This document shows, piece after piece, positions 8,927 through 29,613 of a stretch of 39,479 nucleotides of DNA. Numbering within the stretch: position 1 is the first letter of the stretch; each line of letters opens with the position of its first letter. Source of the stretch: a virus; IMG/VR virus record IMGVR_UViG_3300037485_000343, positions 1 through 39,479 of that record. One strand, 5' to 3'. A program made the translations under genes and the position numbers. The notes beneath the pieces are model-generated. The model was not told where the DNA came from. It ran no database searches and was given only the letters and a program-made list of their open reading frames with translations.

Positions 8927-9049
8927 TTGCAAAATTTTTTTTTGAAATTGCATTTTATATTTCAGATTTTTGCAAAAAATTTTTTTGAGATTGCATTTTA
9001 TACTAAATTCTAGGTTTGCAAAAAATTTTTTTTGAAATCGCATTTTATA
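8927..9049. repeat. Three AT-rich tandem repeats with A-tract/T-tract cores
   Basis: Three units of 33-34 bp at 8927-8959, 8970-9002 and 9016-9049 share the form TTGC, A4-6, T7-9, GARATYGCATTTTATA. They are spaced 43 and 46 bp apart, about four helical turns, so the A/T tracts would be in phase and bend the DNA. They lie between the divergent late and early promoters. They may be an origin (iterons), a binding array for a regulator, or a bent-DNA promoter element. Confidence 0.85.
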
Positions 9050-9190
9050 TCAGAGGCTTATCACTGTCATCGTCCTCGTCATAGAACCCCCACCCATCTG
9101 CGTGAGAAGTCCATTGCTGGTTCACTCAGGTCAGAAAGTCGTTGCAAATCAATGGCTTACAATTAATTTCGACTTATGTGAAAAAAAGAT
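9050..9190. other. Rest of the divergent control region, no gene supported
   Basis: Of the 457-nt gap between terL and the first early gene, this part shows higher GC than its surroundings, one GGTTCAC heptamer (9119-9125) like those at 10,432-10,668, and a possible 26-codon minus-strand ORF (9045-9125, GTG start) that I do not accept as a gene because it has no ribosome-binding site. Nothing else is recognised. Confidence 0.5.
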
Positions 9191-9273: not shown

Positions 9274-9777
9274 ATGAGCACTAAAAGACAAACAGCAACT
9301 GACGGCACTCAAGCACACAGAGACCTTGCAACCGTTAAGAACAACATCAACTACTGGATCAAGGTACATGGCATGGACCGTGAAGAAGCCAAGGCAAGGG
9401 TTAACCAACCATCATACGTTATGATGGATGCTCAGACCATCAACCGTGAAGTAGCAGCTGAGGCTAAACGTCAAGCTAACCTGAAGGCAAGACAGGAGCG
9501 AGAAGCTGAGGCTCAACGTAAAGAGGCTGAAGCTGAACAACAACGTAAGGACCAAGAGCAACAACGTAAAGAAGAACCCAAGACTGAGACTGAGAAGAAA
9601 ATCAATCAACGCCAGATCGGCATAACAGTCAATGGCGTGGTATACCAATCCATCTGCAAGGGTATGGCAGCAGTTGGGATACAAGACAAGGGTACCAAGA
9701 ATTGGTTCAAGATACGGGCTGACTTGAAGAAATCTGGTCAATCAATCTTCGGTGAGTTTACATTCATCCAACTATAA
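9274..9777 (+). CDS. First early protein: coiled coil plus NUMOD-like C-terminal module
   Basis: A 167-residue protein. Residues about 55-112 are an E/K/Q/R/A-rich, strongly helical, likely coiled-coil segment. The last 50 residues (GITVNGVVYQSICKGMAAVG, then W-x2-IR-x2-L-x2-SG and FGEFTF) match in pattern the C-terminus of the 246-residue protein at 14035, so the two share a module. Its form (V-NG-VY-S at the start, GI in the middle, F--FTF at the end) resembles NUMOD1-type DNA-binding modules. It is the first gene behind the early promoter and has a good AAGGAAG ribosome-binding site. A DNA-binding early function is inferred. Confidence 0.72.
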   Translation: MSTKRQTATDGTQAHRDLATVKNNINYWIKVHGMDREEAKARVNQPSYVMMDAQTINREVAAEAKRQANLKARQEREAEAQRKEAEAEQQRKDQEQQRKEEPKTETEKKINQRQIGITVNGVVYQSICKGMAAVGIQDKGTKNWFKIRADLKKSGQSIFGEFTFIQL

Positions 9778-10054: not shown

Positions 10055-10366
10055 CTATTGCTTCATGTCGATGATTAGAGTAGTTGCAGAACTACTCTTT
10101 TCTTTGATTTCCAATGTCTTTAAGTCAGGCATACACTTGCGCAATATAGTGGTGAGTACTTCAGCCTGAAACTTCAATCTAGGCAAGTCCTCGATACTAC
10201 AAGATTTGGCTTGATGACCAAGTTCGAGCAGACCAATGACAGCCGACTCAGGGTCGAGTTTTTCTCTTAACTCTTCTGCTCTAAGTCCTGCTTTTACTCT
10301 CTTTTCGGCCAATACACCATTGTAGTAATCTCGCTCTATTTTCTTCCAATCTACCAATTCTGTCAT
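10055..10366 (-). CDS. Putative terminase small subunit
   Basis: A 103-residue helical protein that begins MTELVDWKKIERDYYNGVLA and has, near its end, ILRKCMPDLKTLEIKEKSSS. The pattern of a short N-terminal helix-rich DNA-binding part, a central oligomerisation helix (about 45-80) and a terminal LPDLK-like segment fits phage small terminase subunits. No other TerS candidate is present. It is on the late strand but is separated from terL by two plus-strand genes and the early control region. A ribosome-binding site AGAGG precedes the ATG. The assignment rests on pattern and exclusion, so it is moderate. Confidence 0.5.
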   Translation of the reverse strand: MTELVDWKKIERDYYNGVLAEKRVKAGLRAEELREKLDPESAVIGLLELGHQAKSCSIEDLPRLKFQAEVLTTILRKCMPDLKTLEIKEKSSSATTLIIDMKQ

Positions 10367-10424: not shown

Positions 10425-10668
10425 GAGAACAGGTGAACAATTGAGGTTCACCCGTAAGTCATTGATTCATAAGAGAAATTCTCGATTTAGAACCGGTGAA
10501 CCAGTTCAATCTGGCTCCTATTTATACTAAAATATTATTTTCAGACTAGATCAATATATATAATTTTGGTTCACCTGGTTCACTTAACTATTTCTTCTTA
10601 TAAATCAATGACTTATATCGCTCTTAAAGAGAACCATTACTAGTTCTCCACATGTTCACCTGGTTCTC
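10425..10668. promoter_or_regulatory. Cluster of GTGAACC-type operator-like repeats
   Basis: At least five copies of a heptamer GTGAACC/GGTTCAC, often doubled at 9-bp steps as GTGAACCAGGTGAACC: 10425-10438 (GAGAACAGGTGAAC), 10445-10452 (GGTTCACC), 10489-10502 (AGAACCGGTGAACC), 10568-10583 (GGTTCACCTGGTTCAC) and 10653-10668 (TGTTCACCTGGTTCTC). In addition GAGAAC/GTTCTC form an inverted pair at 10629-10648. They fill the gap between the divergent terS-like gene and the primase promoter and look like binding sites for a regulator or replication initiator. Confidence 0.8.
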
Positions 10669-10732: not shown

Positions 10733-10780
10733 TTGACATAAAGTAAAAAATATGATATAATGTGTACATCTTATAGGATG
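10733..10780 (+). promoter_or_regulatory. Consensus sigma70 promoter for the primase unit, with 5'-end hairpin
   Basis: TTGACA (10733-10738), 17-bp spacer, TATAAT (10756-10761) with TGA just before the -10 box: a full-consensus promoter. A small hairpin CATCTTATAGGATG (10767-10780) starts at the predicted transcript start. Confidence 0.93.
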
Positions 10781-10937: not shown

Positions 10938-12980
10938 ATGGTGTGTTATATGGCAATAGACAATATTAGTAATGCAGAATTCCTCTCAACAATATTTCCT
11001 CTCAACAATTCATTCCAATGTGACCAAAGATTTCGGTACATCAAACCTAACGAACTTAACCCAAACCATGCGCTATACTATGCTATATGTGCAGTTACAG
11101 AACAAACTCGTAAGAACGATAACTTCACATCACTAAACATCTTGGTATGTGATGACGTTGGTACTAAGGCAGAGACTCCTTCTCTACCGCCATCGTACAT
11201 CATACAAAGCTCACCTGGTAATTTTCAATATGGCTATATCCTCACAACTCCAGAAACAGATATAAATAAAGCTAAAGCACTAATCAATCACCTAATCAAA
11301 TCTGGTTACACAGATGCTGCCGCTCATGGTATAGTTCGTCTAGTACGACTACCATCTGGTGTCAATGGTAAGAATGAACCTGACAAGGTAGACTTTAAAG
11401 TTCATCTGACACACTGGGATCCAGCAACAACGTATTCATATCAGGAACTTACAGAGTTCTTTGGCACAGCTAGCAAATCATCATCTAAGCAATCATCAGA
11501 TAAGTACGAGATACCGACACATATACCAGATGGTCAACGTAACTCTGAACTCACCAAGTTGTGTGGTTATCTATTTGGTCAAGGGCACACTTTGGTAGAA
11601 GTCAGTGCTTTGATGTACACATATAATAACACATTATGTCAGACACCACTGCCTCAAGAAGAGTTACAAGCAATCATCAATTCTATATCGTCACGAGAGG
11701 CTAATAAGTATAAAGACATATTAGATAACATCTATCACATCAGAGCAACGAACACTTGGTTCGACTTCAATGACATGACGGAACTGTCTGCCGACTCACT
11801 CAACATCTCTAACATCGTAGAGTTTCCTGGCACTAAGGACAATAAACCTAGACTAGCAACATGGCTACCGAAGCAATCAGGGTTTAATCAGGTAGCCGAC
11901 TACACTTGGTATCCTGTGCCGCACCATCAACAAAAGCGTACAGTAATGCAAGATGGTAGACGACTGCTTAACACATGGCGAGGGTTTGCGGTTGAGCCAA
12001 CTCAAGGCAACATAGAACCATGGCTGACACATCTAACCCATGTAATACCAGAGGAAGACTATAGACGAGCACTGTTATGGTGGTTAGCATTCACTGTACA
12101 GTGTCCAGACAAGCGCACCTCATGGCAACCGATCATACTTGGTATATCTGGTGCTGGTAAGGATGCTCTATTCAGACCTATCGCCTCTATATTAGGTTCG
12201 GCGTATAAGATCATTGGTAACAAAGATATACAAGGTGACTATGACGACGGTCTATATCAGACTAAACTATTGCAGATATCGGAGGCGTCTGGACTGAGAG
12301 GTAAGGCTATAGACTTCTATAAGCGCATAACAGCTGCAGAGTCGTCCTCCATGCAGATGCTGAACATAAAGTGTAAAGGCAAGGTGATGCAGCATAACTT
12401 ATGTAACGTCTTGGTAATTACTAACAACATAGACGCTATGAAGTTTACCAAAGATGAACGTAGAGCATTCGTACTACGATCGCCGAACGTAATGACAGAG
12501 CAACAACAATCAGACTATTTTGATAATTGGTTAGATAAGAATGGTGCATCGTATCTATTTGATTATCTATTAAGATACGACCTATCAGAATTTAAGCCAG
12601 GCATTAGACCATATCGTACCAGACACTTCGACGAGTTGTTGAACGTAACTCAGAGTGATAACGAGATAAAGATAGAGGAGCTATTAGAACCGTATTTGGT
12701 AGCACTACCAGAAATGGTTAGGACAGTGCTTGGTGCAGATGGTGACAAGTATGGTACAACCAAAATCATCGTATGGTTACAAGATAATGGTTGGACTAGA
12801 TGGGATAACAATGAGTCAGGCAGACGTATAAAACGTAAGATCAATGGTACTACATGCACACCTAAATCACGTAATTGGTATGTCAAGAAAGGTTCAGAGT
12901 TTGAGAACTCTACACCAGCAGATATGTGTAGAGAGGTTGAGAGGGTTGAAGAAATATTTATGAAACGACACAAGTTCTAG
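10938..12980 (+). CDS. Primase-helicase (RepB-type primase, PriCT and DUF5906-type SF3 helicase)
   Basis: A 680-residue replication protein. The N-terminal part resembles RepB/archaeo-eukaryotic primases: CDDVGTK (71-77), SSPGNFQ (91-97) and RLVRLPSGVNGK (134-145). Residues about 197-252 fit a PriCT domain (GQRNSELTKLCGYLFGQGH and onward). The C-terminal half is a DUF5906-like AAA+/SF3 helicase with Walker A GISGAGKD (402-409), an LLQISEA Walker B region (444-450) and VLVITNN. It would unwind and prime phage DNA. The start at 10938 has AAGG eight bases upstream; an ATG at 10950 is also possible. Following genes are 8 nt downstream. Confidence 0.9.
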   Translation: MVCYMAIDNISNAEFLSTIFPLNNSFQCDQRFRYIKPNELNPNHALYYAICAVTEQTRKNDNFTSLNILVCDDVGTKAETPSLPPSYIIQSSPGNFQYGYILTTPETDINKAKALINHLIKSGYTDAAAHGIVRLVRLPSGVNGKNEPDKVDFKVHLTHWDPATTYSYQELTEFFGTASKSSSKQSSDKYEIPTHIPDGQRNSELTKLCGYLFGQGHTLVEVSALMYTYNNTLCQTPLPQEELQAIINSISSREANKYKDILDNIYHIRATNTWFDFNDMTELSADSLNISNIVEFPGTKDNKPRLATWLPKQSGFNQVADYTWYPVPHHQQKRTVMQDGRRLLNTWRGFAVEPTQGNIEPWLTHLTHVIPEEDYRRALLWWLAFTVQCPDKRTSWQPIILGISGAGKDALFRPIASILGSAYKIIGNKDIQGDYDDGLYQTKLLQISEASGLRGKAIDFYKRITAAESSSMQMLNIKCKGKVMQHNLCNVLVITNNIDAMKFTKDERRAFVLRSPNVMTEQQQSDYFDNWLDKNGASYLFDYLLRYDLSEFKPGIRPYRTRHFDELLNVTQSDNEIKIEELLEPYLVALPEMVRTVLGADGDKYGTTKIIVWLQDNGWTRWDNNESGRRIKRKINGTTCTPKSRNWYVKKGSEFENSTPADMCREVERVEEIFMKRHKF

Positions 12981-14034: not shown

Positions 14035-14775
14035 ATGGCTAAGAACAAATTTGAGTCAAACGAAGAAGTAGTTGCAGAAGAAGTTGCATTAACTGAAGAA
14101 CAACATTTGTTAATTGCCGCACTAGAGTCAGACAACGTAGTTGAAAGTCTTTCAGTATTGAAAGACGACGAAGGCACTACTGAAAGGCTTGCACAATTAA
14201 TTACAGTGTATGTGGCTTTACACGGTGCACTAGGCGATGAAGCTGGTGCAACAATTAATGCACATAAAAACTTGGTTACTTACAAACCTGCTAAAGTAAA
14301 GGCAGTAAAGAAACCTAAGGCTCCTAAAGAACCTAAGTTCAACGAACGTAAAGCATTGATAGAAGCATTAGATACTGACACATTATCTACATTGATTGAT
14401 GACGAACGTATCAGCGAAGAGTTAAAGAACGCTATTATTACCTATACTACTTTACGTGGTTTAGATTTACCAGAAGCCATCATTAACGCTGCCAAAGCAA
14501 CATTGGCATCTTTTGGTAAAGGTAGCAAAGGTGGGACTAGTGGTCCAAGACAAACATTTGGTGTAGAAGTTAATGGTGTTGTATATGCAACATTAACTAG
14601 CGCTATTGCTGCACAAGGTATTGAAAAAATCATTACTGGTGAAAACAAATCAGATGACGCAGACATTGCATGGCGCACAATTCGTCCTAGACTAGTAAAA
14701 GATGGTATTGCTAACTACAATGATGCAACATACACAAAAGTTGACTCACCAGTGGCGGCAACAGTAGAAGCATAA
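14035..14775 (+). CDS. Early protein sharing the C-terminal module of the first early gene
   Basis: A 246-residue protein. Residues 15-80 and 100-155 look like two related helical segments (each has an ALESDNVVESLSVL- or ALDTDTLSTLIDDER-like start and an ITVYVALHG- or ITYTTLRG-like end), linked by a K/P-rich stretch (KPAKVKAVKKPKAPKEPK). The last about 70 residues (GVEVNGVVYATLTSAIAAQG, then W-x-IRP-x-L-x-KDG and NDATYTKV) match the C-terminal module of the 9274 product. A very strong AGGAGG ribosome-binding site suggests abundant synthesis. DNA binding is likely but not proven. Confidence 0.68.
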   Translation: MAKNKFESNEEVVAEEVALTEEQHLLIAALESDNVVESLSVLKDDEGTTERLAQLITVYVALHGALGDEAGATINAHKNLVTYKPAKVKAVKKPKAPKEPKFNERKALIEALDTDTLSTLIDDERISEELKNAIITYTTLRGLDLPEAIINAAKATLASFGKGSKGGTSGPRQTFGVEVNGVVYATLTSAIAAQGIEKIITGENKSDDADIAWRTIRPRLVKDGIANYNDATYTKVDSPVAATVEA

Positions 14776-21959: not shown

Positions 21960-22209
21960 AGAATGGTTAGTATTTGCAAATGAAGTAAGTTCTCATATAG
22001 AGTCTTACACTATACCACAATATGGTGACAAAGGAGAAGATATTGCATCAGACTATTACCTAGAAGATTGTATTCGTAACATGAAAAGATATCTAGCTAG
22101 AGCTGGCAAGAATAGTAGACCCGGCCAAGAACAGTTAGACTTAATTAAAATAGCACATTATGCGCAAATGGCGCATACAATAATCGGAGAACAAAATGCC
22201 ACAAAATAA
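21922..22209 (+). CDS. Hypothetical protein in the nucleotide block (DUF3310-like pattern)
   Basis: A 95-residue protein; start chosen at 21922 because AGGTG is six bases upstream, although 21913 is possible. The segment YYLEDCIRNMKRYLARAGKN followed by LDLIKIAHYAQMA resembles the helical core of DUF3310-like or MazG-like small phage proteins, but the acidic metal site of MazG is not complete. It overlaps both neighbours. A role in nucleotide metabolism is suggested by its place only. Confidence 0.6.
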   Translation: MSIKDVKISVRNEEWLVFANEVSSHIESYTIPQYGDKGEDIASDYYLEDCIRNMKRYLARAGKNSRPGQEQLDLIKIAHYAQMAHTIIGEQNATK

Positions 22210-23092
22210 TAATACAGAACATGAAGCAATGCACACAACACTTAAATTTGGTGAGCCAGGCCATCTTGAATTTGTAGAACAACTTAATAATATTGATGTT
22301 AAGATTGTTGGTGCACCATCTATAGCAGAATTTAGAAAAACTATATCTGTGTTTATGATGAACACTTGGAATGACAATTTGCGCTATGAGTTTAATGATG
22401 ACGCTATTGACCAATGTATTAAAGATTTATTTGCTGGTAAAATATTACCAACTGGTATGGAGACTATTGGTATTACATGGACTGTTGCTGGTCTTAACAT
22501 GATTGATACAACACATCTTATTAGGCATAGATTGTTTTCTTTTTCTGCACAAACACATGCTGATAGAGACATGCGCGACGATCTTTGTGTGGTAACTCCC
22601 GGTATAATGGCTAATGAAGAGTTTTATGATAGATATAAGTCTATAGTAAGAAGTGCGCATAGTCTATATGTAGACATGATGGACTCTGGTGAAGTTAATT
22701 GCTTAGATGCTAGAACTATTATGCCACGATGCATGGATCATTTTTATATTACCAGATGTTGCATAAAAGACTTAATTGGTTATTGCCAAATGCGAGCCGA
22801 TGAACAAATACAAACAACTGTCGACAATGTAGTAGCTATGAAACTATGGTTAGAAGTATTAAACCTATACCCATTCTTAAAAGGATTGGTAGATTTTAAT
22901 AAACCAGACTCATATTATGTATCACAATGCAAAGCAGGTAAAACTAATATATTTCCACCTAACCAAAAGAATGATTTATTTGATTGGCACCCTGACCAAT
23001 TTGTGCACCCTAAAGGTCGCGACGAGTTTCCCGGTAGTGATGTATATCTAAATTTACGTAAAGAACTACTATCTCAAATAGACGCAATATAG
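22196..23092 (+). CDS. thyX: Flavin-dependent thymidylate synthase ThyX
   Basis: A 298-residue enzyme that makes dTMP from dUMP with flavin and folate. The signature RHR-x7-S is present as RHRLFSFSAQT (110-120), with Thr in place of the final Ser. The C-terminal motif DARTIMPRCMDHFYITRCC and LIGYCQMRADEQIQ (about 181-220) is also typical. The N-terminus carries about 20 extra residues, and the end has an extra C-terminal part (about 255-298). It overlaps the previous gene by 14 nt, with a GGAGA ribosome-binding site. Confidence 0.9.
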   Translation: MPQNNNTEHEAMHTTLKFGEPGHLEFVEQLNNIDVKIVGAPSIAEFRKTISVFMMNTWNDNLRYEFNDDAIDQCIKDLFAGKILPTGMETIGITWTVAGLNMIDTTHLIRHRLFSFSAQTHADRDMRDDLCVVTPGIMANEEFYDRYKSIVRSAHSLYVDMMDSGEVNCLDARTIMPRCMDHFYITRCCIKDLIGYCQMRADEQIQTTVDNVVAMKLWLEVLNLYPFLKGLVDFNKPDSYYVSQCKAGKTNIFPPNQKNDLFDWHPDQFVHPKGRDEFPGSDVYLNLRKELLSQIDAI

Positions 23093-24369: not shown

Positions 24370-24561
24370 ATGGCTAAACTTGACAGAAGAGAGTATTTTA
24401 TTAATTACAATAAAAAAAGAGAAAAGAAAATTCACACACGTCATTTGCCGGGCAATCGTGAAAGTGATGATGTTTGGAACATACAAAAAAAAGGACAGTG
24501 CTTTTCATACGATAGATTAATGATAGCATTTTTAACACAAAATTTTAAAATACTACTATGA
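24370..24561 (+). CDS. Small basic hypothetical protein
   Basis: A 63-residue Lys/Arg-rich protein (MAKLDRREYFINYNKKREKK and on to AFLTQNFKILL). It lies between the terminator and the ligase gene and overlaps the ligase start by ATGA, which supports it. There is no clear ribosome-binding site (only GTGGAAT ahead of the ATG) and no promoter is obvious after the terminator, so expression may depend on read-through. The charge suggests nucleic-acid binding. Confidence 0.55.
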   Translation: MAKLDRREYFINYNKKREKKIHTRHLPGNRESDDVWNIQKKGQCFSYDRLMIAFLTQNFKILL

Positions 24562-25610
24562 ATAAACATACACTATATAAAATAACAGCTAATGGCCAAA
24601 TATACACTTGGTGCATATCAAGTAAAAATGATGTAATATCTATGAACTTTGGTGTACTAGGTGGCGCCATACAAACGGCAAAAGAGCAAGTAGAAGTTAA
24701 CCAATCTGGTAGAACACTATCAGAACAAGTTAACTCTCGCATAATGTCAAGAATAAGTAAACAAATAGATAGAGGCTACAGACTATCTATAGAAGAAGCA
24801 AAACTAAATATAGGCATGAATGCTATGGACTTGCTTAAGCCAATGCTGGCACAACGGTTTGATAAAATAAGCGGTATAGACTATTCTAATTGCTTTGTTC
24901 AAAAGAAATATAATGGTCATCGTTGCATGATTACCAACACTGGTAATGACATAGTTGCCTATTCGCGTAATGGTAAACCAGTAGAAACTATTGGTCATAT
25001 ACTAAAAGATATAAAGTTAAAACCCGGCCAAACGTTAGATGGTGAATTGTACATACATAATACACCACTGCAAGACCTTGGTAGTCTAATAAGACGTAAA
25101 CAACCAAATAGTGTAATGCTACAATATGTCGCCTATGACTATATTGCAGATGTTAACTATCAAACAAGATTAGACATTTTGCAATACTCTAACTGGGGTG
25201 AGCATATAAGTATAGCACCGACAAAACCATGGACTTCTAGCATAGTACTTAAAGATGAATTAGACGAGTCTATACATGATGGCTATGAAGGTTTAATACT
25301 TAGACATGGCAATAAAGGTTATGAGGCAGGTAAACGTAGTAATTCTTTAGTTAAAGTTAAGAAAAGTATGGACCAAGAGTTTTTAGTTATTAATATATCA
25401 GCATCAAAAGATGGTTGGGCAATACTAGAATGTAGTGTTGGCACAAGTTCATTTAGAGTTAGTGCACCAGGCACTATAGAAAATAAATACCATATATTTC
25501 ACAACAAAGAAAAATATATTGGTAGATGGATTACGGTTGAGTTCTTTGAATGGACCAATGATGGTAAACCATTTCACCCATCAGCAATAGATTGGAGAAC
25601 TGATTTATGA
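24558..25610 (+). CDS. ATP-dependent DNA ligase with an N-terminal WGR-like domain
   Basis: A 350-residue ligase. Residues 5-75 look like a WGR domain (LYKITANGQIYTWCISSKND, a GVLGG turn and a final IDRGY). The ligase core follows: motif I KYNG with K117 as adenylation Lys, LDGELYIH (160-167, motif III), EGLILR (244-249, motif IV) and SLVKVKK (263-269, motif V), then an OB-fold-like end with EFFEWTNDGKPFHP. In motif I the usual Asp (KxDG) is Asn (N119). WGR domains bind nucleic acid in PARPs, so here it may guide the ligase to DNA ends. Confidence 0.88.
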   Translation: MNKHTLYKITANGQIYTWCISSKNDVISMNFGVLGGAIQTAKEQVEVNQSGRTLSEQVNSRIMSRISKQIDRGYRLSIEEAKLNIGMNAMDLLKPMLAQRFDKISGIDYSNCFVQKKYNGHRCMITNTGNDIVAYSRNGKPVETIGHILKDIKLKPGQTLDGELYIHNTPLQDLGSLIRRKQPNSVMLQYVAYDYIADVNYQTRLDILQYSNWGEHISIAPTKPWTSSIVLKDELDESIHDGYEGLILRHGNKGYEAGKRSNSLVKVKKSMDQEFLVINISASKDGWAILECSVGTSSFRVSAPGTIENKYHIFHNKEKYIGRWITVEFFEWTNDGKPFHPSAIDWRTDL

Positions 25611-25822
25611 AACCAATACTATCACTAGTAGAAAAGAAACATTTGCTACCATGCCCATTCTGTGGTAGTACAGATATTAAAATACCTACAGAATTTGACG
25701 CATACATATCATGTACCAATTGCTTATCATTTGGACCAAGTCCAATTGTTGCAAATTTAGAACATGATAAAAACTATATGACGAACATTATATCTTTGTG
25801 GAATACTAGACATGGAAAATAA
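25607..25822 (+). CDS. Lar-like zinc-ribbon protein (restriction alleviation family)
   Basis: A 71-residue protein with CPFCG (C16, C19) and CTNC (C36, C39) forming a zinc ribbon, followed by GPSPIVANLE and a final ISLWNTRHGK. The CPFCG...C-x2-C...GP...A...WN-R layout is that of Lar-type phage/prophage proteins; Rac prophage Lar modulates EcoK restriction and modification. Whether this one acts against restriction is not shown. It is coupled to the ligase gene by ATGA and overlaps the next gene by 11 nt. Confidence 0.72.
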   Translation: MKPILSLVEKKHLLPCPFCGSTDIKIPTEFDAYISCTNCLSFGPSPIVANLEHDKNYMTNIISLWNTRHGK

Positions 25823-26129: not shown

Positions 26130-28424
26130 TTAATCATTTATTGATTTATATTTTTCATTAATCCATTTTTCAGCCTCAGTCATTTTCTTTTTAATGGCTC
26201 TACCTTGGCCTTCAACATAGTTTATAGCTTTAGGATATGGTTGAGTGGCTTGTTCAGCAGCTCTAGTATACAAAGATAGTCTACCAAGGTCTTTTCCAGA
26301 CATATTTAATAGTCCAGTTTTAACAGGCCAACCAGTTTTATATGCAGCTAAAGCAACCCTTGGCCCTATTGGTATATATCCGGCCATTGGCGTCATAAGC
26401 AATTTTTCTACTAAACCAGGATTGCCGGCATTGGCTATATTACGTACACCCATACCAGTTAAATCAGAACCTTCTTGCATTCTGTCCATGTAGGCTAGTT
26501 TAGCTACCTTTTGTAAATCTTTTACTCTACCACCTTGGTCTGTTAATAGTCGTTTAGTATCTGAACCCATTAAATGGTTCATTATTTTTTCTGGAGCAAA
26601 TTGACCAGTTGGCGTCATACCATGTTCCAATATTAAATTGGTCATAGCATTACGTTCATTAAGGTCTTTCCACTGTGCAACAGTAGATGTACCACCTTTG
26701 GTCTGTACACCACGTTCTACAGCATCATCTACATGTTGAAGTAAAGGTTTAAGAGCCTCTGCTTTGCGTGTATCACTACTAGAGTACGCATCATTTATAT
26801 CACTACGTAAATTACGCCTAATCTCTTTGTAATTGTCACCTTCAAGTATTGACGATTTAAGTCTACCGGTCAATGGGTCTCTACTTGGTGCCATTGCCAT
26901 AATTTTATCTGCATAGCCTTTTACTAGTTTACCAATACTAGGGTCTATTGTTTTATCTACAATAGTTTTATTGGCTATATCTCTTATATCATTTATATCT
27001 TGCGGTCTAAAATGTGCTATAGTGCCAGCTTCTAACGCATCATATTGATTGCCAATATCCGCAAGATGGCTTTGTAATACTTTTGGCGTTAATGATAAAT
27101 TACCAGAATTAACTACATCAGGACTCATACCCATGGTATTAGCGGCTATACGATTATTAACTATAGCATTGGCGTTATCATATAGAGCTAATGAGTCACC
27201 AAGTTGTGAGTCAGACCTCATCGCATGCTCAAACTTTTGTAATCGCTTAGAGCCAGACTCCATACCTGGTAAGTATCTTAGTCCTTGTTCTTCGCCCCAT
27301 TTTAATAAATCTTTTTCAGTAGTATTACCAGCTCTAAAGTCTGGCATTCTAGTAACATAAGGTTTAAGCGCGGCGCCTGCCGAAGAACCTACACCAGAAC
27401 TTAATGCACCTTCCCACCAAGATTGGTCTGGATGTAATGCACTTTCTATAGCACCAAGTGTAGCACCACCAAGTATTTCTCCACCCAACCCTTGTGTATA
27501 TGGGTCAGATATTTTTGGCCTTAATTTTACATAGGCCGAACGTCTAGTCCATGGGTCAGTTATTTCAGTTTTAAATCTACCACCAATTTTGCTAGCAAAA
27601 GGATTATCATTAGACGCTATTTTTTCTACTAATTTGGTAAACGCGCCTTTACCTTCATTAACGGCAGCCATTGGTGCTTCAGACAATGTAGATAATACTT
27701 CTTCACCAATTTTGCCGGCGGTCTTACCAACTGTAGAACCAGATACTATGTAAGGTAGCATAGCGCCTAAATGACCTGACACACCCTGGTTTTGTAAGAA
27801 CTCACCCATTATGGCATCTTTACTTGCCTGATCTTCATCTACTGCAGTCATCTTTTTAATCATGTTTGCAGATGCTTCAGGTCCAACCAAAGATGGATGT
27901 TGTGTATTCCATCTGTCTGCCGCCATACCTGCCAAGCCATAACCTAAAGTATTTATACCAGATAATAGTTTATCAGCCTCTCTACCAGCAGAAATCATAG
28001 CTTTATCAATAGGCCCCATTTGCATAACGTCGTTATATCTAGCTAATGCATCAGGTCCTTTAGAACGAGCTAATAACTCATTTTGGGCATCTGTACCAAA
28101 TGTACCACTAGATGTAGTATGCTCACCCCCTTGGTGAAGATTGGGTTGCCCTAATGCTGCAGTATTTCTTATTGCAGCTCTTTTGCTATTATAAATATCT
28201 TCAACAGTTGGTTTAGGTTTATATGCCTCTGGTTGTACAAATTGAGTACCATCCCAAATTGCACCTCCCAATTGGTCACCAGACTTGAATTGTGATGGTT
28301 CAACTTCTGTGCCATTATAGTTAGTACCATTTAACTGGTTTATTAGTGCTTGGTCAGTTACTTCAGTAGTACCACTTGGTGCATTAAGTTGATCTAGTAG
28401 TGCCTTATCTTTAACTTCACTCAT
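26130..28424 (-). CDS. Large internal virion / DNA ejection protein
   Basis: A 764-residue protein; I start it at 28424 (MSEVKDKALLDQLN), which overlaps the upstream stop by 8 nt, rather than 23 codons earlier. The N-terminal part has two short repeats (KALLDQLN and QALINQLN), found in many ejection proteins. Gly/Ala-rich amphipathic stretches (about 215-370) could enter membranes; the C-terminal half is helical with charged coils. It is the last gene of the late operon and follows three other ejection-type proteins, as in P22- and T7-like phages. No lytic transglycosylase motif was found. Confidence 0.78.
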   Translation of the reverse strand: MSEVKDKALLDQLNAPSGTTEVTDQALINQLNGTNYNGTEVEPSQFKSGDQLGGAIWDGTQFVQPEAYKPKPTVEDIYNSKRAAIRNTAALGQPNLHQGGEHTTSSGTFGTDAQNELLARSKGPDALARYNDVMQMGPIDKAMISAGREADKLLSGINTLGYGLAGMAADRWNTQHPSLVGPEASANMIKKMTAVDEDQASKDAIMGEFLQNQGVSGHLGAMLPYIVSGSTVGKTAGKIGEEVLSTLSEAPMAAVNEGKGAFTKLVEKIASNDNPFASKIGGRFKTEITDPWTRRSAYVKLRPKISDPYTQGLGGEILGGATLGAIESALHPDQSWWEGALSSGVGSSAGAALKPYVTRMPDFRAGNTTEKDLLKWGEEQGLRYLPGMESGSKRLQKFEHAMRSDSQLGDSLALYDNANAIVNNRIAANTMGMSPDVVNSGNLSLTPKVLQSHLADIGNQYDALEAGTIAHFRPQDINDIRDIANKTIVDKTIDPSIGKLVKGYADKIMAMAPSRDPLTGRLKSSILEGDNYKEIRRNLRSDINDAYSSSDTRKAEALKPLLQHVDDAVERGVQTKGGTSTVAQWKDLNERNAMTNLILEHGMTPTGQFAPEKIMNHLMGSDTKRLLTDQGGRVKDLQKVAKLAYMDRMQEGSDLTGMGVRNIANAGNPGLVEKLLMTPMAGYIPIGPRVALAAYKTGWPVKTGLLNMSGKDLGRLSLYTRAAEQATQPYPKAINYVEGQGRAIKKKMTEAEKWINEKYKSIND

Positions 28425-29613
28425 GCCATTTACCTTCTGCATCTTGATAATAAGTTTTATTACCAAGTACTTTAGATTTAATAAAATTACCACTAGGCGG
28501 ACTAGAAGGTGTTTGCAAATCTGGTCTACCAGAACTTGAGCCTAATGCATCAAGTTCTGACGCTAGTGCAGATTTTTTAGCAGTCCAAGTCTCTGGTTTT
28601 TCTCCCCATTGTGGTATATATGCATCAGCCTTATCTTCTGCTTCTTGTGCAGTATAACCACCACCAGTTAGTGCATGTATTATATTAATCTTTGCTGCTT
28701 GTTGAGCTTGACTAAATAATTGCTGGTTTGCTGACTGCATACTTTTACCAAATGTCTTTAGTACAGGTATATTAGTACCAGCAATAATATCACCAGCGTA
28801 ATCAGTTAAATTAGTCTCTGAACTTGTAGGGTCCATATCTCTAGTACTCATTAGCTTATCTAAGCTTTCTACAGCTTTATTTAGGCCAGTGTAGTGAGTA
28901 AATGCTTTGTTCTGTGCCTCAGTAGTAGTTGTAGGATGTGCCACAACTTCACCAGTTTTCTTATTGGTAGTAGCTGACACGTTTAATGGTATACCCCAAG
29001 CACGTTTTTCTTCAGATGTTGCTGGTTGCATTTGCATACCATCACCAGTAAAGATATTGGTGCCACTATTTTCTTTATATGGTTCACCAACTGGTATGGC
29101 TGTATTATTTGGCCCAAGAACAAAATTGACCTTATAACCAGGTTTGCCAGGTGCGCCCATTGAGTGCACAGAAGATGGTGTAGTTGGTCTATTAAAATTA
29201 TCCAACATTTGCAGACCATGAGTTGCCATAGTTTCATCTGGCAATGCACTAACTCTAGCTGCAAACTCTCTAGGGTCCATAGCGCCACCAAGAAGTCCTG
29301 TGCCACCAGTAGGCAGTTGTGCGTCACGATACGGTGTTGGTATACCATTACCAGGTTGGCCTCTATCACCAACTAATGCCTTCATCTGTTCTACAGCATC
29401 TAAGTGTTCTTTTTGCTTTTCTTTTGCCAATCTTTCTTGGGGCGTAACTCTATATAATTCAGCATAATTAGGCTGCTGCGGTATAGACGCTGCTTGATTT
29501 TGTCCTTGAGATAAAAACGCCAGCATCTGACCAAGACCGTTATTGGCGTCTGGTGCTGCTACACGCGGTTTTACTATATCACCACTTAATAAATCTTGTA
29601 TTGTGAGGCCCAT
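28417..29613 (-). CDS. Internal virion / ejection-associated protein
   Basis: A 398-residue protein. The N-terminal half is Pro/Gly/Gln-rich and probably disordered. The C-terminal part has NIIHALTGGGYTAQEAEDKA followed by YIPQWGE and a W-x-x-KKSALASEL helix, a pattern seen in phage proteins beside ejection genes. It starts next to the stop of the preceding gene and overlaps the following one. A role in the virion interior or in DNA injection is inferred from place and composition. Confidence 0.65.
   Translation of the reverse strand: MGLTIQDLLSGDIVKPRVAAPDANNGLGQMLAFLSQGQNQAASIPQQPNYAELYRVTPQERLAKEKQKEHLDAVEQMKALVGDRGQPGNGIPTPYRDAQLPTGGTGLLGGAMDPREFAARVSALPDETMATHGLQMLDNFNRPTTPSSVHSMGAPGKPGYKVNFVLGPNNTAIPVGEPYKENSGTNIFTGDGMQMQPATSEEKRAWGIPLNVSATTNKKTGEVVAHPTTTTEAQNKAFTHYTGLNKAVESLDKLMSTRDMDPTSSETNLTDYAGDIIAGTNIPVLKTFGKSMQSANQQLFSQAQQAAKINIIHALTGGGYTAQEAEDKADAYIPQWGEKPETWTAKKSALASELDALGSSSGRPDLQTPSSPPSGNFIKSKVLGNKTYYQDAEGKWHE

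Follow-up and report, generated by a model that had tools for sequence, protein, structure and literature searches.

The replication function of the origin of the PICI EcCICFT073 has been tested experimentally, its ori region being required for replication, and the cos sites of this element are described separately from ori (PMC6092414). In SaPI Rep and SCCmec Cch2, iteron recognition resides in the C-terminal domain (PMC7581432). In P4, the annotated type 1 repeats of ori1 read GTTCACC, are doubled at 9-10 bp, and direct their ACC ends towards a 35-bp core of 83% AT. The CFT073 PICI carries GTCTACC iterons around a 40-bp core (78% AT) just 3' of its primase, and Acinetobacter phage Alexa has TGCAACC iterons with one IHF-like box downstream of its primase. 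From P4 ori1, the CFT073 PICI and Alexa we defined the NNNNACC iteron format used throughout this analysis.

Here we examine an intergenic array at 10425-10668 of a phage record of 39,479 bases (the window, meaning the whole stretch of DNA that was analysed), in which a replication module occupies the plus strand from 10.9 kb and structural genes lie on the minus strand. The array shares its geometry with P4 ori1 and with the tested PICI origin, and this geometry is conserved among relatives. By analogy with those systems, we consider it probable (roughly 0.84) that the array is a phage replication origin of the P4/PICI type with added IHF sites, bound by the adjacent primase-helicase. Origins with P4/PICI iterons are already known; new here are the two IHF-like boxes, the polymerase-encoding phage family, and the location upstream of the primase.

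Likeness to the EcCICFT073 origin extends to two convergent sets of NNNNACC iterons at 9 bp, an AT-rich core and a DUF5906 primase nearby, and the four-base part varies between PICI lineages also. Unlike the window's array, which is 5' of the primase and has two IHF-like boxes, the PICI origin is just 3' of its primase and lacks a match to the IHF consensus; unlike the PICIs, the window's family encodes its own family-A polymerase. As the array is 5' of the primase and not immediately 3', we do not file it as a strict PICI origin. With P4 ori1 it has in common GTTCACC (also readable on the window's complementary strand), the 9-10 bp doubling, ACC facing an AT core, and a DUF5906 helicase, whereas P4 has a second site (crr) and a Toprim primase, and no IHF box was seen in ori1. 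The resemblance to SaPI and SCCmec Cch2 would lie in a self-loading helicase that reads iterons via its C-terminal domain, but those systems are Gram-positive and place the origin downstream of the gene.

Sites and geometry of the array

Exact GTGAACC occurs six times in the 39.5 kb of the window, against 3.1 expected from shuffles, and four of these copies fall within 139 bp (Table 1). The original prediction had counted five GTGAACC sites in the array; there are four exact copies, or approximately 11 sites when GWGAACM-type variants are counted (about seven, differing by one or two letters). Its description of doubled sites stands, but not the uniform 9-bp spacing, as two pairs are 8 bp apart (10425/10433 and 10488/10496) and two are 9 bp apart (10568/10577 and 10653/10662). 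The AT-rich setting between divergent ORFs, and the perfect consensus promoter of the primase, are both as predicted. Features that had been overlooked are the convergent symmetry of the inner sets, whose ACC ends face each other across the AT-rich core, the two IHF-like boxes, and the combination of a fixed ACC with four variable bases.

The cluster had also been held not to be expected by chance. For GTGAACC itself this is borne out, as four copies within 250 bp arose in none of 200 dinucleotide shuffles of the window; however, four copies of any GC-rich heptamer within 250 bp were found in 14 of 100 shuffles. Heptamer clusters are therefore not rare by themselves, and significance rests on the geometry and its conservation. 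Our geometry detector required two copies of one NNNNACC at 8-10 bp, their ACC ends directed at a core of 20-120 bp, and an inverted copy on the opposite side. The window gave a single match, exactly at the array (inner copies 10496 and 10568), which thus conforms to the iteron format, while there were no matches in 200 shuffled windows, nor in T7, lambda or P2. Single matches were likewise returned by P4 (the annotated ori1), by a 45-kb stretch of CFT073, where it falls just 3' of the PICI primase, and by 7 kb of Alexa (downstream of its primase). Of eight further E. coli PICI-type loci, six were positive, with [GA]TCTACC or GTTCACC, and the other two contain repeats (GTTCACC and CCCTACC) that failed the strict rule; in these loci the format lies 3' of the primase and the four-base parts differ ([GA]TCTACC, GTTCACC, CCCTACC). 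Among five VapE-type phages fetched without selection for ACC, only one gave a detector-type repeat set. The cumulative GC skew of the window turns at approximately 11-12 kb, in keeping with an origin in this region, but the turn coincides with the switch in gene strand.

Just outside each inner iteron set, on both sides of the core, lies an IHF-like box, AATCAATGACTTA, that fits the IHF consensus WATCAANNNNTTR. Read on the opposite strand, the left box is TAAGTCATTGATTCATA and closely resembles TAAGTAGTTGATTCATA of lambda (position 27606), the IHF site H'. A scan of viral contigs for the mirrored double-IHF pattern recovered, besides the window's family, mainly sequence unrelated to it; a pair of IHF boxes is therefore not diagnostic by itself. 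In the collection of literature that we searched, there was no known phage origin of the iteron type with IHF. Rfam and tRNA scans of the window, and a DNA-level search of a phage collection, returned no match.

Table 1. Features in and around the array (window coordinates)
Feature	Position	Strand	Remarks
Conserved 103-aa ORF (TerS-like in the original prediction)	10055-10366	-	not thought to bind the array
Left outer iteron cluster: GAGAACA 10425-10431(+), GTGAACA 10433-10439(+), GTGAACC 10445-10451(-)	10425-10451		counterparts in L001/L008
Left IHF-like box, AATCAATGACTTA (WATCAANNNNTTR)	10455-10467	-	
Left inner iteron pair: TAGAACC 10488-10494, GTGAACC 10496-10502	10488-10502	+	ACC into core
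Core, 65 bp, 78% AT	10503-10567	none	proposed melting site
Right inner iteron pair: GTGAACC 10568-10574 and 10577-10583	10568-10583	-	9 bp apart, ACC into core
Right IHF-like box, AATCAATGACTTA	10603-10615	+	
Right outer iteron cluster: GAGAACC 10629-10635(+), GAGAACT 10642-10648(-), GTGAACA 10653-10659(-), GAGAACC 10662-10668(-)	10629-10668		
Consensus sigma-70 promoter, TTGACA-N17-TATAAT	10733-10761	+	upstream of primase, outside array
Primase-helicase (RepB_primase/PriCT_1 + DUF5906 helicase), proposed initiator	10938-12980	+	start more likely ATG at 10950
Primase C-terminal domain, proposed to bind iterons, modelled as winged-helix-like	12700-12900	+	pLDDT 81

Outside the array, the one further single site that had been noted, at 9119, is present, and a second lone GTGAACC (29081-29087) had been missed; the latter is within a coding region and is probably a chance occurrence. 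Upstream of TerL, at 8930-9050, there are three direct repeats of approximately 33 nt resembling GCAAAAAATTTTTTTTGAAATTGCATTTTATA, followed by the lone GTGAACC at 9119 and an IHF-like AATCAATGGCTTA (9147). We considered the 9119 site with its IHF-like box as a second, P4 crr-like site and do not claim it, because of the relatives inspected only L001 and L008 retain this site and a similar box.

Conservation among relatives and competing explanations

The array is present in 15 IMG/VR contigs that carry the primase and/or the small 103-aa ORF, and in all relatives examined. Trailing ACC, 8-9 bp spacing, AT-rich core and IHF boxes are constant; in most relatives the core spans 63-70 bp with 72-86% AT, and the boxes match or nearly match the consensus in every family array inspected. 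The leading four bases vary between genomes, all sites of one genome shifting together: GTGAACC in the window, L001, L002, L006 and L008; GGGAACC in L003, L004 and L016; GAGAACC in L022, L107 and L110; GAGGACC in L005; TGGAACC in L025; TAGTACC and TGGTACC in L017 and L018; and, on both arms of L007, GGTAACC inside with GAGAACC outside. Such concerted change implies a co-evolving phage binding protein. The original prediction had held that absence of the motif from close relatives whose intergenic regions are otherwise alike would count against it; the exact heptamer is indeed missing in several, but has unexpectedly been exchanged across the whole array for another ending in ACC. In every relative with sufficient sequence, the proteins retained close to the array are the primase, that of the small ORF and further replication proteins, and the primase is 79% identical between the GTGA and GGGA types. 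The distance from array to primase is 270 bp in the window and approximately 1.6 kb in L022. L005 has its array past the small ORF and a promoter-like sequence still upstream of the primase, and the array is thus separable from both flanking genes.

These comparisons bear on other functions that the array might serve. At a packaging site of the cosB or pac type, the small TerS-like protein would bind the repeats while IHF bends the DNA, as at lambda cosB, and in keeping with this most relatives have only approximately 60 bp between the TerS-like ORF's start codon and the beginning of the array, and a Pfam Terminase_2 gene adjoins IHF and NNNNACC repeats in unrelated phages (the L044 group and L064). 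We nonetheless regard packaging as unlikely, given that the CFT073 PICI has the same array without terS, a separate cos, and an ori region that is needed for replication (PMC6092414), and that P4 ori1 shares the format. Furthermore, the array of L005 is downstream of the small ORF, the contigs of relatives end at differing places, and the ORF itself has no family match and yields a low-confidence helical model without a clear HTH, its core being almost invariant although the array motif changes.

An operator array, at which a phage regulator controls the divergent promoters, would suit a location between divergent genes and near a strong promoter, and an initiator bound there could also autoregulate. 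The repressor or activator originally put forward, the HTH protein at 25812, does not accompany the array, however: it is confined to two of nine records, the window and its nearest relative, and the other candidate, ORF 9274, is weak or missing in more distant relatives. The primase promoter stands 65 bp outside the array, from which it is separated in L005, and no good leftward promoter overlapping the array was found; regulation by such a protein is accordingly a very improbable function of these sites. Least credible, with hardly any weight in our assessment, is an attP-like recombination site with arm sites and IHF. IHF beside direct repeats is typical of tyrosine-recombinase arms, one IHF-like box resembles the lambda H' site, and one pattern match (L045) is near a tRNA-like 3' end. 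Against this, there was no integrase match among the window proteins scanned (a subset of the ORFs), and the array remains close to the primase, its symmetry is centred on an AT core, and its iteron format is that of P4 ori1.

The primase-helicase as proposed initiator

The suggestion that a replication initiator such as the primase-helicase binds the sites is supported by the format that the array has in common with P4 ori1 and the functionally tested PICI origin. DUF5906 is detected in the window primase at 27.4 bits (5.8e-06), 0.2 bit under the Pfam cut-off of 27.6, and this helicase domain also occurs in the CFT073 primase, in P4 alpha and, above the cut-off, in the L022 relative. When the window primase was compared directly with P4 alpha by profile, there was no match, and at most a weak alignment, and a primase search of genome contigs found no relative. 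The model of the last 120 residues (pLDDT 81) has mostly winged-helix proteins as its best matches, all weak (Z at most 4.4); nothing matched strongly in a Foldseek/VIA search with it, and 1KA8, the origin-binding domain of P4, was absent among the matches listed. A short segment between the invariant W-x-R-W-D and R-I-K varies from one iteron class to another and is the same throughout the GTGAACC class, a pattern that relatedness alone could produce.

Taking together the restricted distribution of the HTH protein, the retention of the primase near the array, the shared DUF5906 domain and the winged-helix-like C-terminus, we infer that the primase is the initiator. Its binding and ring loading, and the role of IHF, are modelled on the P4 and PICI relatives and on the IHF consensus. 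The C-terminal domain of the primase-helicase would bind the GTGAACC iterons, allowing the protein to assemble on both arms of the array. Because the two arms are oriented towards one another on either side of the AT-rich core, a pair of helicase rings could load and melt it, and both forks would be primed by this one protein. IHF at the flanking boxes may bend the arms and thereby aid assembly.

Several other observations concern the proteins of this family. In L005 (8873-11026) and L022 (3093-5240) the PriCT_1 and helicase parts of the primase are kept with an N-terminal region unlike that of other relatives, a natural domain swap. The proteins at 9274-9777 and 14035-14775 of the window appear to share a C-terminal segment (VNGVVY...GI...W..IR..L), suggesting that they are paralogues, and the early region encodes a ThyX-like thymidylate synthase and an ATP-dependent DNA ligase (22196-23092 and 24558-25610).

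Wider occurrence and implications

Scanning viral contigs for an IHF-like box followed by two ACC repeats gave at least 119 matches, at least 71 of them non-redundant, with a bimodal distribution. Both repeats have identical four-base parts at 20 of the 71 non-redundant places among the matches listed, where we estimate from base composition that fewer than one would be expected by chance; most of the others look like chance. As this set was chosen by ACC, it cannot alone prove that ACC is special. Several of these places that are unrelated to the window lie directly 3' of VapE-type primases (L033, L084, L106), where a Toprim primase gene ends (3' end; L092), or beside a Terminase_2 gene that has a primase-helicase no more than a few kb away (L044, L064), and some places in the scan may be other IHF-linked sites. 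Near the VapE-type primase and possible NNNNACC array of L106, an ORF (1-935) matches a PHROG described as cytolethal distending toxin B subunit, which may only reflect a nuclease fold.

More broadly, and as a tentative proposal that we think could well be wrong, one origin code may be common to many phages and satellites whose primase-helicases are otherwise unrelated (DUF5906, VapE, Toprim, AAA_25); in this code the last three bases of the iteron, ACC, are fixed and directed at the melting core, a leading four-base lineage address is rewritten together with the C-terminal domain of the initiator, and IHF boxes are optional. If true, this would be akin to plasmid incompatibility groups, for phages.

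The P4/PICI layout is encountered here, with IHF boxes added, in a family of uncultured phages that have a DNA polymerase gene of their own. Since close relatives differ in the four address bases while all else stays, the family constitutes a natural experiment in the mutual re-specification of an origin and its self-loading helicase-primase. Lineages that keep the layout and rewrite the box sequence make this lock-and-key relationship between origin and starter protein testable, and the family also bears on whether the origin address limits replication interference among co-infecting phages or satellites.
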